Below, one piece after another: positions 29,568-39,303 of a stretch of DNA of 64,000 nucleotides (position 1 is the stretch's first letter; each line of letters begins with the position of its first letter). The position numbers and the translations under genes are program-made. Source of the DNA: Gammaproteobacteria bacterium (GTDB taxonomy: Bacteria > Pseudomonadota > Gammaproteobacteria > Tenderiales > Tenderiaceae); contig JACQEP010000021.1 of the NCBI GenBank assembly GCA_016200485.1, positions 1-64,000 on the forward strand. The letters are read 5' to 3'. The notes under the pieces were generated by a model, which was not told the origin of the DNA, made no database searches, and saw nothing but the letters and a program-made list of their open reading frames with translations.

Positions 29568-31841
29568 TTAAGTCCTCAACCCGATTGCTGTATCAATGCT
29601 GTTGGGTGGAAAACGGCGCCAAGACCAGCCCGCCACTGCTAGCCACAGCAACGCACCTATAGTACCGCCGCCGCCCGTGCCGCCAAAATTCGTGCTGCCA
29701 TCTCCGGCGCCTTTGATTTCAGTGGTCTGGCTGGCGGTGTTGTTGGCGACGAACGCGTCTATCTGGCCACTAGAGACAGGGATGTCAACTATTGCCGTGA
29801 CCGTAATTGTCCCGGCTACAGTAGGGGTTACGTCTATAAAGACCTGTTTTTTATCCTGGGCAGCAATGAGGCCGAGTGAACAGGTGAGAGTATAGTTTGC
29901 AAAACTGCAAGAATTCGCGGGTTTTACAGTATTCAGCCGTAGTTGTGCCGGTACATTGATGGTGAGTATTGCGTTGTTGACGTCTATGGCGTCATACAAA
30001 TTTGTGACCGTTATGGTGTAGGTATTTTGTTGATTTACGGTAGCCGGATCATATCTGTCAGTCACTGTAGTCTTGAGATCGACATAAGTATTTCCAGCGG
30101 CTGTGCCGGCGTTGTATTCGTAGGCGCCGATATCGCATAGATTACGCAAGAGGTTACGTTGGTCGATCAGCGGGCATGGGTTTGCAACATTACTGGGAAT
30201 TGCATCGATCGCGGGACTGCCTGCCAGGAGTTGATGGGTCTTGGTGGTCGTCCCTGGGGCGTTGACTTGGAGTGTCTCGTCTATCTGCAGCGATGGATTC
30301 GTGTTGTTATTGAGGTTGGTGCGATCAGAACCCGCGGTTAAGTCGCAGCTAGCGTCACCGCTAATGTTGTAACCATTGGAAGCGATGTAGGCGGCATAAC
30401 CGGCCGAGCCGGCACAAACGCCAACAGCGGCGCCGTTGACCTGGTTATTGTTGCTATAGGTGCCATCGGCGAGGATGCTGTTGGTGATGACCACATCCGG
30501 ATTATTGGGGGCAACGCCAGGATTGGTATTGTATACCGAGAGTTCGTTACCGCCCGTGGCGCCACGCGCATCACAATTGCCGACACCCAGAGTACAGGGC
30601 ATGGCTTTATTGTTGAAGATCGTCACGTTGGTCAGCGTGACATTACGGGTAGTAAAGATACCGCCGCCGCCACGGCTAACATTCTTGCTGATGGTGACAT
30701 TGGCGATATCAATGTTGCCCAGACCAGAGTTGTAAATTCCCCCCGCATCATAACCGACTGCAGTACCGTTCACATCTTTCGTCTGATTTTCATTGACGGC
30801 GCTGCGCTGTAACGTCATCGGGCCGAGGTTGAAAACACCGCCGCCAATACCACCGATGGCAATTTGAGCGCCACCAGGATTGTTGGGATCTTGTCCCAGG
30901 ATCTGCTGGGCAGTATTAAACTCGATGGCGGCGCCGATGGTATTGGTGGTGCCGTTATTGCCGTTTTGAGGTTCGTTATAAATCCCCCCACCTAAATTGG
31001 CGATGTTGTGGTCGATGGTGGCTTGGCCAACATTAAGATACCCCCCCAGATTGGCGATACCGCCACCACCGCCCTTGGCAGCGCTGTTGCTAGTGATAAA
31101 GGTATTAGACCGGATATTGGTCGTGCCTTGATTGCTGAGACCGCCACCGGCAAGTGCCGTGTTGGAGCTAACAGTGCTGTTCGAAAGCGTCAATGTTCCA
31201 TTCGGACCGACATGGATGCCACCACCAAGAGTGGTGAAAAAATCAGCAGTGGTCCCGGTGACGGTATTGTTTTGAATTCGACAGTCGTTGATGGTGACGG
31301 TGCCGGAGTCTATTAATACCCCTGCACCATTGAAAATCGTAGCATTACTATTTTCTTCGGTAAGACCGTTCGTGATAATTAACCCGGTGAGTGTGACAGT
31401 TGGGTTGCCGGATGCGAGATGGAATACGCGGTCGCGCGTGGCAAGCACACCGGCGCTGATGGTGGTGTAGTTGACGCCGCCGGTGCTGTTGCCACCGTTA
31501 CCGAGGATATCGACGCTATCGGTGATATCAAGGTCGCCGGTCGCGGCGGCATCTTCGTTTCGGCCTACAATGCTAAGACTGATCGTTCCCAAGGGAAGAG
31601 TAATGGTATCTTTGCCGGGGGTGGCGTTCGCCTGCTGAATAGCGGCGCGTAACGAGCAATTTCCGTTGTTATCAGCGCAGGCTGCGTTGTTTAAATCTGC
31701 GTCTATCGAGTCGCTAAAGATGTTGACGGTAAACGATGCAGCATATGCTGCCTGGGGGGCAAGGATGTTTACGCCAATTGCAGCCGACAAGAAAACCAAG
31801 TACCGCGCCCAGCGGGCGGGAGTGTGAATCGATGCTGTCAT
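29568..31841 (-). CDS. Surface parallel-beta-helix protein with CSLREA-type start and GlyGly-CTERM-like tail
   Basis: A 757-residue exported protein. Residues 1-34 are a signal peptide ending AYA. DADLNNAACADNNGNCSLRA is a CSLREA-type domain start. Residues about 130-480 hold many Asn/Gly-rich turns (GGGI, NNTVTG, GGGLSNQGTTNI) typical of right-handed beta-helices. CPLIDQR with CDIGAYEY closes the helix, as in choice-of-anchor-Q proteins. A DUF11-like Ig domain follows (about 600-700). The C-terminus has GGTGGGG, a hydrophobic helix and RR, as in GlyGly-CTERM rhombosortase substrates, but 14 residues follow the Arg pair. It is probably surface-displayed or secreted. No sortase gene is in view. 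Confidence 0.8.
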   Translation of the reverse strand: MTASIHTPARWARYLVFLSAAIGVNILAPQAAYAASFTVNIFSDSIDADLNNAACADNNGNCSLRAAIQQANATPGKDTITLPLGTISLSIVGRNEDAAATGDLDITDSVDILGNGGNSTGGVNYTTISAGVLATRDRVFHLASGNPTVTLTGLIITNGLTEENSNATIFNGAGVLIDSGTVTINDCRIQNNTVTGTTADFFTTLGGGIHVGPNGTLTLSNSTVSSNTALAGGGLSNQGTTNIRSNTFITSNSAAKGGGGGIANLGGYLNVGQATIDHNIANLGGGIYNEPQNGNNGTTNTIGAAIEFNTAQQILGQDPNNPGGAQIAIGGIGGGVFNLGPMTLQRSAVNENQTKDVNGTAVGYDAGGIYNSGLGNIDIANVTISKNVSRGGGGIFTTRNVTLTNVTIFNNKAMPCTLGVGNCDARGATGGNELSVYNTNPGVAPNNPDVVITNSILADGTYSNNNQVNGAAVGVCAGSAGYAAYIASNGYNISGDASCDLTAGSDRTNLNNNTNPSLQIDETLQVNAPGTTTKTHQLLAGSPAIDAIPSNVANPCPLIDQRNLLRNLCDIGAYEYNAGTAAGNTYVDLKTTVTDRYDPATVNQQNTYTITVTNLYDAIDVNNAILTINVPAQLRLNTVKPANSCSFANYTLTCSLGLIAAQDKKQVFIDVTPTVAGTITVTAIVDIPVSSGQIDAFVANNTASQTTEIKGAGDGSTNFGGTGGGGTIGALLWLAVAGWSWRRFPPNSIDTAIGLRT

Positions 31842-32245: not shown

Positions 32246-34960
32246 ATGAATAAGCAATGGCCATTAAAGATGGTGGCTGTGACCATGGTTCTGGCGGGGT
32301 GTGGCGGGGGTAATAGCAGCTCGACGGGTTCGTCGGCGACCGGTTCGTTGAATAGTTCAGGTGAGGTGTTGTCGTCGCTGACGCGCGGTTTCACCTTGCC
32401 ATCCGAGATATCAGCCGTTCCCGCCGATGCGACGGCAACTGCTGCTTCGCTAAGGAGTAGCCGTAATCTGTTTTCTCAGTTGCGCGCGTTGACTGTAGGA
32501 ACTACTGATTCTGACTACAATAAGGCGACGACCGCGCAATCCATCGAAGAGCGAACGCTCGAGCAGTTCAGCATCATCGAAACCATCATGAAGTCTTTGG
32601 CCCAGACCAATTATTCTGATCCCGCCAATATCAATCAAGGCCCGTACAAGGCGATGGTGGCATGGGAGGAGCAGGGACAAGGCGGGCGCGACATCAAGAA
32701 ACTGGAGCCCTGGGTTACCGACTCACGGTTGATCGTTGGGACAAGCCCGAATGGTAATCTGATCGATATCAACCGTATTCTGGTGTGGATTACCGAAGAA
32801 GATCCGAGAAACCCTGGCAAGACACGTTTGACTAAAGTGGAGTTCAAGATTTACAGCGCGGCTACTTTTAATGCGGCGGGTGAGGTGGTGGACTATGGCG
32901 AGTGGGATATCAATGCCAAGTTTAATGACGCGGGTACGGATTATTTCGCCGCTTCATCACGTAAACAAGGTGGTATCAGCCTGCTGAAGATGCATATGAC
33001 AGGTGAGTGGCCGATGAGGGCTATTTTGTATCGAGCTGGCGCGGCGGGATTCGGCCAAGTCGAATATCCGGTGTGTAATGGTCCCTGCGGGTCGACGCCA
33101 ACGACAAGGATTGCCAAATATTCCTATAACAAGGATTATCTCGCGGTAAAGGATGGACTCAATGCAGTGGTCTATAAAGACCGTGCCAGCAAGGTCAAAA
33201 TGACGCGCCGTTATGGATTGTTTTATAAAGCTGCGGATGCTGCTAACAACATTGCCGCAGGGGATAGTGTGGAACGCCACAAACAGTTTGGATTCCCCGT
33301 GACCTATATAGATGCCAATGGAACGCAATTTGGTTATTACGGTGCTTGGCAGGGGCGTCATCAGTTGTGGGGTGGTCAAAGTGGTATCCAGGCTGGCACT
33401 ACGGTCACCCGGCAAGATTTCGGTGCCAATGCCACGCCTATGACTTATACAGTTTCGCCGACGTTTACGGGTACCTTGACCAGACGTGCTTACGTCACGG
33501 GCACGTTGGCGGATATTCAAAATATTCCGTTTGAGATCTGGATGAACAAACATCTGGAGCTGAAGTACAACGGAGCGGCATGGGAGACATGTCCCGGCTG
33601 GTGGGATTACAGTGGTGGCGGTGCTCCAGTGTGCAAGGATTTTAACGGGGGCACACCCGCGCTCGTTGCGTTTAGTGATTTTGCGTTATTGCAGGTGGGT
33701 GCCAATGACCGCAAGATGGTGAATATCATGCGGAATAATGCGGGTACGATGCAACCGTATGTTTATCTTGCCGCCGATCCCGGGGGTATTGGTTACACCG
33801 TTGCTGGTTTTTATCCTGCGCTGGCATCACTGAATGGCGGCTGGCAGGCAACCACCGGCGGTATTTATACACCGGCCAACGGTGATCAATTGATGATAGA
33901 TATCGGTGGTTCGATTTATATTGAATTTAACAGTGTCGCCCAGGCATGGAAGCAAAAGAAATTGCTTAGCTTCGATCAGCAGACGTGGACGCCAACTTTC
34001 GACCCTGCGGGGAATACCAATTTTACGCCTGATCTGGGTCGCGAGTATTACATCAACGCCAATGGTGTGAATTACGTGGTGAAGAAAATTGCCGCAGGAT
34101 TGCCGGAGACTAATGCAAACAATGAGGTGAAGCTCGAGTTACAGACGACAGCCAATCCCCGGAATATAAAGTCGGCAGATCCAAAGTACATTTTTCCCCC
34201 GAATTTTCATCATTTCGCGTCACATTGGGAGCCAAAGGTTCATTTTTCTTTCGATAGCGACCCGTTGAGCAGCAAGTTCATGAATCTAGTGTATCTGACA
34301 GATGATCCCAATACTGCGGCTAATGATGTTGGTAGTGTTCTGGCGGAAGGGCAATGGGGGCTGTGGGCGTACAATGTGTCCGGCCAGCCGATTGATGTCA
34401 GCGGCAATGCGCTAACCTTGAATGCCGCTGGTTTTCCTAGCGGGGCGCCCGTAGAGTTTAACTGGGAATATTCAGCTGCTGGTGGTTGGGGCGCGCAGCA
34501 ATATCTGATCGATGCCAATGGCAACTATGTGTTGTTGAGTGACCCGGTGCCAATTACTGTTCCGATTAATGCAGCAGTCGATAACGCCGGGACTCCGGTT
34601 GCCAAGCCGCTATCATTGCAATTCGATGGCTGGATGCACGGCTTGCCGGATTTGTATCGTGATCTGGAAGTGAATAACTGGACCATGAGCACAGCTATTT
34701 CCGACAAGATTATTAGTATTCCAGCGGATACCGAGGTGAGCGATGGTTCGGTAAGTTATTACGTCAAGCCATTGGAAGTCAGTGTGTTCCTGAATGTGGT
34801 GACGTTGGTAGATATTGCTAATGCCGGAAAGATCGCACCTGATATTGATCTGGCGAGTCTGGCAATCTTGAGTACCGTGCCGATGTTCACCGAACACAAG
34901 ATGGGTGATATGCCTGCCAATGTGGTGACCAGGTACTCGGAAGGCAATCCAGTTCAATAA
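32246..34960 (+). CDS. Large lipoprotein of unknown function, paralogue A
   Basis: A 904-residue predicted lipoprotein. The lipobox LAGC places the lipidated Cys at residue 19, followed by a flexible GGGNSSSTGSS tether typical of outer-membrane or surface lipoproteins. The rest is rich in aromatic residues, Gly and Asn with short beta-strand patterns. Strong blocks shared with the gene at 36557 include EERTLEQFSIIE, YKAMVAWEE, KKLEPWV, YGAWQGRHQLWGG, FNWEYSA-GGWG-QQYL and LQFDGWMHGLPDLY. The CNGPC pair (about residue 278) could be a disulphide. I recognise no characterised family. RBS is CGGGGTTAATCAAG before ATG 32246. Neighbours suggest an accessory block of exported proteins. Confidence 0.75.
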   Translation: MNKQWPLKMVAVTMVLAGCGGGNSSSTGSSATGSLNSSGEVLSSLTRGFTLPSEISAVPADATATAASLRSSRNLFSQLRALTVGTTDSDYNKATTAQSIEERTLEQFSIIETIMKSLAQTNYSDPANINQGPYKAMVAWEEQGQGGRDIKKLEPWVTDSRLIVGTSPNGNLIDINRILVWITEEDPRNPGKTRLTKVEFKIYSAATFNAAGEVVDYGEWDINAKFNDAGTDYFAASSRKQGGISLLKMHMTGEWPMRAILYRAGAAGFGQVEYPVCNGPCGSTPTTRIAKYSYNKDYLAVKDGLNAVVYKDRASKVKMTRRYGLFYKAADAANNIAAGDSVERHKQFGFPVTYIDANGTQFGYYGAWQGRHQLWGGQSGIQAGTTVTRQDFGANATPMTYTVSPTFTGTLTRRAYVTGTLADIQNIPFEIWMNKHLELKYNGAAWETCPGWWDYSGGGAPVCKDFNGGTPALVAFSDFALLQVGANDRKMVNIMRNNAGTMQPYVYLAADPGGIGYTVAGFYPALASLNGGWQATTGGIYTPANGDQLMIDIGGSIYIEFNSVAQAWKQKKLLSFDQQTWTPTFDPAGNTNFTPDLGREYYINANGVNYVVKKIAAGLPETNANNEVKLELQTTANPRNIKSADPKYIFPPNFHHFASHWEPKVHFSFDSDPLSSKFMNLVYLTDDPNTAANDVGSVLAEGQWGLWAYNVSGQPIDVSGNALTLNAAGFPSGAPVEFNWEYSAAGGWGAQQYLIDANGNYVLLSDPVPITVPINAAVDNAGTPVAKPLSLQFDGWMHGLPDLYRDLEVNNWTMSTAISDKIISIPADTEVSDGSVSYYVKPLEVSVFLNVVTLVDIANAGKIAPDIDLASLAILSTVPMFTEHKMGDMPANVVTRYSEGNPVQ

Positions 34961-36402: not shown

Positions 36403-36418
36403 TGTGACCTACGTCACA
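36403..36418. promoter_or_regulatory. Perfect CRP/Vfr-type binding site
   Basis: TGTGA-CCTACG-TCACA matches the CRP consensus half-sites exactly with the required 6-base spacer. It is centred 146 bases before the ATG. If transcription starts just after the GATAAC at 36460-36465, the site lies near -61, a standard CRP activating position. A CRP-family gene is not in this window. Confidence 0.55.
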
Positions 36419-36556: not shown

Positions 36557-37369
36557 ATGAATAAGCAATGGGTAATTAAGGCAGTGGCGGCAAGCGTGGC
36601 TTTGGCTTTGACAGGTTGCGGTGGTGGCAGCAGTTCGGGTTCCTCTGGCAGCACAACTACGCGTGCGTATACCTTGCCGACGGATATATCTGCGATACCG
36701 GCTTCAACCTCATCCGCCGCTTCACTGCGCGCGGCATCATTGATGGGACGGTTGGATCGCGCAGCGTCAGATCTTTCGTCAGCGTCGGATTACAACCAGG
36801 CGATGACCTCCAAATATGTGGAAGAGCATGCCCTGGAACAGTTCGCCATTATCGAACAGGTGATGAAGGCGCTGGCGCAGACCCATTATAACGATACTGC
36901 TAATCAGAATGGTGTTGCCTATAAGGCGATGGTGGCCTGGGAAGAGGAGGACAATGGCATCTCCATCAAAAAGCTGGAGCCGTGGGTGGTTAAATCCCAG
37001 ATTGTGAATGACGCACGTCCCGATGGCACTACCGGTAATCTTAACAAAGTACAGGCGTGGATCGAGGAGGATGACAGCGACAATCCCGGCCAGAAGAGAG
37101 TTATTCGCGCCGAGTTCAAGATCTATAGCGGCGCGACCTTCGATACCGATGGCACAGTGCTGACTTATGGTGAGTGGGATCTGAATGTCGCTTTTGGCAA
37201 TAATGCTACCAAGTTCTTTGTTGCTACGTCGAGGAACAACAATGGCACGCCGGAGTTGAAGATCAACGAAAATGAAGGGAACTGGTTCTCGCGGGCAGTG
37301 TTGTACCGCTCTGGTACTTCCGGTTACGGTAAGGTGGAGTATCCTGATTTCAGTCAATGCCATGCCTGA
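36557..37369 (+). CDS. N-terminal part of lipoprotein paralogue B, up to the TGA
   Basis: 270 residues that would be made if the TGA ends translation: signal peptide, lipidated Cys21, tether, and the first third of the protein (EEHALEQFAIIEQVMKAL, YKAMVAWEEEDNG, EFKIYSGATFDTDG). It would be exported and anchored but lack the conserved aromatic-rich core. Confidence 0.6.
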   Translation: MNKQWVIKAVAASVALALTGCGGGSSSGSSGSTTTRAYTLPTDISAIPASTSSAASLRAASLMGRLDRAASDLSSASDYNQAMTSKYVEEHALEQFAIIEQVMKALAQTHYNDTANQNGVAYKAMVAWEEEDNGISIKKLEPWVVKSQIVNDARPDGTTGNLNKVQAWIEEDDSDNPGQKRVIRAEFKIYSGATFDTDGTVLTYGEWDLNVAFGNNATKFFVATSRNNNGTPELKINENEGNWFSRAVLYRSGTSGYGKVEYPDFSQCHA

Positions 37370-37423
37370 CCTTGTACACCGCCTGCGGCATCAGCCTCTT
37401 ATGCCTATAATGCCGATTATCTG

Positions 37424-39250
37424 GTGGTGGACGATGGTAGCGGTCCGGTCTATAAGGATCGAAAGAGCGAGGTGGAAATGACACACCGCTACGGTCTGTT
37501 CTACGCCAATGCTGATGCCGGTGCGGGCATTGTCGCCGGTGACAACGTGCAGAAACATAAATCCTTCGGTTTTCCGGTCTCCTATGTGGACAGCAACGGT
37601 GTCACCCAGCGCGCCTATTATGGCGCCTGGCAGGGGCGACATCAGCTGTGGGGTGGGGGTCCGAACGGTGTGCCACCAAATACCGTCGTGACGCGTGAAG
37701 ATTTCGGTGCCAACACAATTCCAGTTACATATACCGTACAGGCACCGCTGGCAGGTTCGTTCACTAAACGTACACTGGTCGCAGGCAGCCCCGATGACAT
37801 CAAGGGTATCGTGGTGGAGACCTTCACCAACAAACACTTTGAGCTGTTTAATAATGCAGGCACTTGGGAGTCCTGTGAGGGTGGCTGGATTCAGTTTGGC
37901 ACGCCAAATTTATGTAAGGATTTCAGCACCGGGAATTCTAAGGCGTTCACCAGTTTCACTAGTTGGAGTTCACTGGTGGGTAATAACCGCAAGCATGTCA
38001 ACATCGGCCGCTGGGATAATATCAATCAGGTGGCCGTAAACTATGTCTATCTGGCCGCAGCGGATAATATAGCGAACTTCACTACACCCGGTTTCTATCC
38101 CGCCATACAGGGGCAGAATGGTCTTACAACGGTACAGGGTGGCAGCCGCTATGCAGGTAACAATGGCGACCAGCTCTGGGTGGATGTCAATGGCTCACTC
38201 TACATCCAGTACACCGGTGATTTCACTAACGGAGCGACCGGCTGGGTGCAGAAGAAGCTTACTTCCTTTGATCAGACGACGTGGACACCGACTTTTGATG
38301 CCAATGGCGATACGGCTTTCGTGCCCGAGCAGGGGCGCGAGTACTACATCAATAGCAACGGTGTGAACTATGCGGTGCGCCGCATTGCGGCCGCTGATGC
38401 AGCGGCCTCTTATGAGGTACAACTGGAGCTGCAATCCACTGTCAATCCGGTGAATGTGCTCACCTTCCTACCCACAGGGACTCACCATTTGGGTACACCG
38501 TGGCAGCCGGGACTGGCGCTGAAGCTTGAGACCAACAGCGCGAGCGCTAATTACCTGAAACTGGTCTATGCGGCGGATGATCCAGCCACCAATACGGTGG
38601 AAACCACAGCAGATGTCTACACCTCCGGTCAGTGGGGCTTGCAGGCATTCAATGTTGGGGATGCGCCACTGGATGCGAGTGGCAATGTAGTGACCGTCGA
38701 TGGTTTTGGTGTTCCCACCGGTGGCACCCGTCCCGTGCAGTTCAACTGGGAGTATTCAGCCAATGGCGGCTGGGGTTCGCAGCAGTATCTGAAGAAGAAT
38801 GATGGCAGTGGCGACTATATGTTGCTTTCCGATCCGATCAGTCTGGTGGCCAAGTCTTACAGCTATAGCTATCAGACTCCGGCGGCAACCAAGAGCCTGG
38901 CTTTGCAATTCGATGGCTGGATGCACGGTCTGCCTGATCTCTACCAGGATCTGCAAAAAGGTGGCTGGACGATGACGACTGCGCTGTCGCAGAAGATCAT
39001 CAACATCCCGGCGGGGACACAGGTGACCGACAGCAATGGTGTGGTCTACTACATCAAGCCGTTGCAAGTAAGCATTTTCCTGGCCGAGGTTAATTCACCT
39101 GCGGCAGGCAAGAGCTTCCCCGATGTGACACAGGGCAGCGTTCTGAATGTGGGCGTAGGCAGTCCACTGTTGCCGACCTTTACCGATCATGGCATGAGCA
39201 CCACCATTCCACCGGCAGATGTGAAATATTCCGAGGGTGATGAGGTGTAA
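37424..39250 (+). CDS. C-terminal part of lipoprotein paralogue B, after the TGA
   Basis: 608 residues from GTG 37424, in the same frame as the N-terminal part. No ribosome site is evident and there is no signal sequence, so independent translation would leave it in the cytoplasm. Blocks YGLFYANADAG, YYGAWQGRHQLWGGG, FNWEYSANGGWGSQQYL and LQFDGWMHGLPDLYQDL match paralogue A. Best read as the continuation of the gene at 36557. Confidence 0.55.
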   Translation: MVDDGSGPVYKDRKSEVEMTHRYGLFYANADAGAGIVAGDNVQKHKSFGFPVSYVDSNGVTQRAYYGAWQGRHQLWGGGPNGVPPNTVVTREDFGANTIPVTYTVQAPLAGSFTKRTLVAGSPDDIKGIVVETFTNKHFELFNNAGTWESCEGGWIQFGTPNLCKDFSTGNSKAFTSFTSWSSLVGNNRKHVNIGRWDNINQVAVNYVYLAAADNIANFTTPGFYPAIQGQNGLTTVQGGSRYAGNNGDQLWVDVNGSLYIQYTGDFTNGATGWVQKKLTSFDQTTWTPTFDANGDTAFVPEQGREYYINSNGVNYAVRRIAAADAAASYEVQLELQSTVNPVNVLTFLPTGTHHLGTPWQPGLALKLETNSASANYLKLVYAADDPATNTVETTADVYTSGQWGLQAFNVGDAPLDASGNVVTVDGFGVPTGGTRPVQFNWEYSANGGWGSQQYLKKNDGSGDYMLLSDPISLVAKSYSYSYQTPAATKSLALQFDGWMHGLPDLYQDLQKGGWTMTTALSQKIINIPAGTQVTDSNGVVYYIKPLQVSIFLAEVNSPAAGKSFPDVTQGSVLNVGVGSPLLPTFTDHGMSTTIPPADVKYSEGDEV

Positions 39251-39275: not shown

Positions 39276-39303
39276 AGGGGCGCAGCGATGCGCCCCTTTT
39301 TTT
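39276..39303 (+). terminator. Rho-independent terminator after lipoprotein paralogue B
   Basis: Nine-bp stem AGGGGCGCA / TGCGCCCCT with a GCGA tetraloop and seven T's. It starts 26 bases after the stop codon. Confidence 0.93.

Follow-up and report, generated by a model that had tools for sequence, protein, structure and literature searches.

A lone in-frame TGA in one of two paralogous lipoprotein genes is probably a very recent nonsense mutation

An internal UGA within a bacterial gene has several described precedents. Recent nonsense pseudogenes of duplicated genes carry one internal stop in a frame that is otherwise kept. In selenoprotein genes, such as fdhF, an in-frame UGA is paired with a SECIS element. 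In prfB, an internal UGA forms part of a programmed frameshift. We focused on a lipoprotein gene with an in-frame TGA, located in a 64,000-nucleotide stretch of DNA (the window). The relevant features are as follows.

36557 to 39250, + strand: lipoprotein gene of 897 codons plus TAA, with a single in-frame TGA inside; predicted lipobox LTGC at residues 18-21 (sequence).
37367 to 37369, + strand: the internal stop, a TGA at codon 271; it falls in a hairpin turn that is hypervariable and has a cysteine on either side (alignment and paralogue model).
36557 to 37369, + strand: stretch expected to be translated, giving a 270-residue truncated lipoprotein that would end inside a long antiparallel beta-sheet.
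37370 to 39250, + strand: 626 open codons plus TAA 3' of the TGA, still constrained and expected to be mostly untranslated (dN/dS, conservation and simulation).
39276 to 39303, + strand: intrinsic terminator 3' of the broken gene.
36403 to 36418, + strand: perfect CRP-type palindrome, TGTGA-N6-TCACA, 154 bp 5' of the ATG (relatives in other genomes have it too).
32246 to 34960, + strand: intact 904-residue paralogue, 51% identical to the broken copy (alignment).

In translation, the TGA has the context SQCHA-stop-PCTPP and is the sole internal stop between 36557 and 39250. The frame then stays open over 626 codons until the TAA at 39248-39250. At the base composition of the window, such an opening would arise by chance with a probability of about 3e-12, and none of 3000 shuffles was open. 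The whole-genome record (G000:C21:36557-39247) has the identical lone TGA. Translation and this second copy confirm the initial annotation, which described a lone in-frame TGA at codon 271 of an 897-codon frame. That both sides of the TGA share one frame with the paralogue also holds. Both align to it without a frame change, and they also do so with L064, a 73% identical gene from a related genome.

The TGA had been placed beside a Cys-Pro-Cys region of the paralogue. Two flanking cysteines are indeed present, and many family members share them. However, they are not found in all members, and the stretch between them varies in length and sequence. Comparison of orthologues at codon 271, proposed with the initial annotation, was informative. 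In the family alignment, the column is occupied by P, E, G, H, N, W, D, S, V or a gap; neither cysteine nor a stop occurs there in any aligned relative. Judged from this alignment, codon 271 does not correspond to a catalytic cysteine. In an AlphaFold2 model of the paralogue (mean pLDDT 78), the stretch forms a turn in a long antiparallel sheet, joining its strands 268-276 and 286-294. Because the turn sits between two strands of the sheet, truncation at codon 271 should destroy the fold. According to the model, a protein ending here would be about 70% shorter and lack the remaining sheet.

A TGA between two cysteines invites a further reading, that UGA encodes selenocysteine in a redox-active, cysteine-rich loop. 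The initial annotation offered this option and suggested a search for selA, selB and selC. The machinery was not found at the family cut-offs. SelA has no match in the genome, nor in 20 related genomes. The best SelB-like match scores 97 bits against a cut-off of 242, and all others are also below the cut-off. The best SelD-like match (67.6 against a cut-off of 125) was identified as ThiL, thiamine-phosphate kinase. All matches to tRNA-Sec are likewise below the cut-off of 47. The best of these, at 44.5, is an ordinary tRNA-Leu according to ARAGORN, and the tRNA-Sec-like matches that ARAGORN read were ordinary tRNAs. This exclusion holds as far as the assembly reaches. The RNA following the UGA contains no structured element (fold z = 0.21), with 114 of 200 shuffles folding equally well or better, and Rfam gave no match after the TGA up to E = 1. 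Both results agree with the earlier remark that a SECIS-like hairpin is missing downstream. Selenocysteine was rejected given the absent SelA, SelB, SelD and tRNA-Sec, the missing hairpin and homologues that never have cysteine at this column. The chance that it is inserted here is negligible.

We also considered whether this genome uses TGA as a functional stop. Its prfB gene (L091, G000:C13) retains an intact, canonical RF2 autoregulatory programmed frameshift site, AGGGGGTATCTTTGAC. Here, a short upstream frame closes at UGA and the +1 frame goes on as RF2. Within the window, TGA terminates 12 of 43 long non-overlapping ORFs, that of the broken gene included. Given the frameshift site and this usage, TGA is a functioning stop. 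No tRNA with a UCA anticodon occurs among the 38 tRNAs detected; five expected tRNA genes are absent, so a hidden one is conceivable. The tRNA-Trp has an ordinary CCA anticodon, and G24 rather than the A24 of the Hirsh suppressor. Hence, a dedicated suppressor, raised earlier as one way in which the UGA might be suppressed, is unsupported. A UGA suppressor tRNA or reassigned code was rejected on the basis of these tRNAs, the presence of RF2 with its UGA site and normal use of TGA.

The five genes not found among the 38 tRNAs of the whole assembly (G000) are those for tRNA-Cys, tRNA-Ile, tRNA-Ala(UGC), tRNA-Gly(GCC) and tRNA-Leu(UAA). The 25-contig assembly therefore misses some RNA loci. The missing tRNA genes probably lay in repeats that were not assembled.

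UGA followed by C is a leaky stop context. The base directly 3' of the TGA is C, and in this context some full-length protein may be made. The stop could thus be real yet leaky, with read-through yielding a small amount of full-length lipoprotein, as the strong downstream constraint would allow. We consider this very improbable, since tRNA-Trp is not of the suppressor type and RF2 is present with its usual control site. Furthermore, because no relative has the stop, the TGA is not a conserved read-through site. A moderately leaky stop, giving truncated and full-length lipoproteins from one gene and hence placing the downstream part under selection, is very improbable.

Selection on the gene was assessed on both sides of the TGA. 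Relative to L064, dN/dS is 0.127 upstream and 0.116 downstream. At downstream columns conserved in at least 75% of sequences, the broken gene deviates at 18 of 199, compared with 20 of 199 for intact L064. In a simulation, 0.03 substitutions per site of neutral drift produced about 11 extra deviations, and a new stop with a probability of 0.88; neither is observed. The simulation caps the time since the lesion at roughly 0.03 substitutions per site. Synonymous sites are saturated, with dS to L064 of about 1.5. Hence, as a rough estimate, the age of the lesion amounts to no more than a few per cent of the branch. At this dS, compensating frameshifts near the TGA, in the form of a local double indel, would be indistinguishable from substitution in a variable loop of the codon alignment. 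The lesion, if real, is young. Absence of downstream decay would also fit read-through or a consensus error.

Under the last of these readings, a base-calling or consensus error produced the TGA, or the TGA is a variant of a minority strain; either way, the population would carry an intact gene. The 626 downstream codons without decay, and the intact regulatory site and terminator, are all as expected from an unbroken gene. However, only a substitution error would leave both sides of the TGA in one frame, and the site is outside any homopolymer. The neighbouring in-frame ORF pairs that we checked are separate, intact genes. Hence, the window is not error-ridden. We regard an error or variant as unlikely, and infer that the TGA base is real.

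The CRP-type operator upstream of the broken gene is conserved. Perfect TGTGA-N6-TCACA sites also occur 213-269 bp 5' of the start in L066, L067, L070 and L073. In L064 and L080, the upstream sites have one mismatch. Among random 450-bp pieces, 0.7% contain a perfect site and 0.85% have a best site with one mismatch. No such palindrome occurs upstream of the intact paralogue at 32246. Since the broken copy has a site common to several relatives, recent loss is again suggested.

The stop is absent from relatives, the frame is otherwise intact and decay has not accumulated, as in a recent nonsense pseudogene. Hence, among the options listed in the initial annotation, a nonsense mutation is best supported by the lone TGA, the sense codons in relatives and the lack of decay; selenocysteine and a suppressor are not. 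The probable explanation is that one of the two paralogous lipoprotein genes very recently acquired an ordinary nonsense mutation. Briefly, a single nonsense substitution would have turned codon 271 into TGA, very recently, in one of two copies of a large outer-membrane-type lipoprotein gene. In vivo, RF2 would terminate ribosomes at this codon. The predicted product, a lipidated fragment of 270 residues, would end within the beta-sheet and is probably unstable. Little of the mRNA 3' of the TGA would be translated. The paralogue at 32246, which is intact, may still supply the function.

Both copies belong to a family of lipoproteins of about 900 residues (32246-34960, 36557-39250 and L064-L084); several members are preceded by a CRP-type operator. 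The hosts are uncultured Gammaproteobacteria, Nitrospirota (including Candidatus Manganitrophus), Desulfobacterota-type genomes and one acidobacterial MAG. The family has no significant match in Pfam, NCBIfam or PDB sequences. At E up to 0.001, Foldseek gave no match to the model of the paralogue (pLDDT 78). The best VIA-align Z score, 6.9 to beta-barrels, is in the range indicating a common arrangement only. Relatives were sought in viral contigs and none was found. As a clue to function, we looked for neighbouring genes common to the window and the relatives; none is shared. The intact paralogue adjoins a gene at 29568-31841 on the - strand, encoding a protein of 757 residues that has a choice-of-anchor Q domain (NCBIfam NF041518).

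Damage is seen in three more family members. L078 (Desulfobacterales) has TAG at a conserved Trp position (L078:8359). In L072 (Candidatus Manganitrophus) there is a frameshift (L072:8190-8204), and L074, from an uncultured Chromatiaceae, contains an insertion of about 290 bp (L074:6150-6480). These lesions are independent of that in the window, and decay is not unique to the window copy. Some of the three may be assembly errors.

The kind of case described here is already known. Like recent bacterial nonsense pseudogenes in duplicated genes, the locus combines one internal stop, a frame and constraint that are kept, an intact paralogue nearby and sense codons in relatives. The difference is that such pseudogenes are set against an intact allele in the same species; here, the comparison is across relatives. 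Bacterial selenoprotein genes share the in-frame UGA within a cysteine-containing stretch. Conversely, they come with selA, selB, selC, selD, a SECIS-like hairpin and aligned cysteines, all of which are lacking for the lipoprotein gene. Hence, a false selenoprotein candidate is removed. The prfB frameshift, of which the same genome has a genuine case, also places an internal UGA in a constrained frame. However, the lipoprotein gene keeps one frame on both sides and is without the Shine-Dalgarno-like slippery CUU-UGA site. The case is therefore an ordinary one, a gene that has, or seems to have, only just been inactivated. The by-products are perhaps worth more than the lesion: a lipoprotein family that matches nothing in Pfam, NCBIfam or solved structures, with a CRP-type operator upstream of several members.
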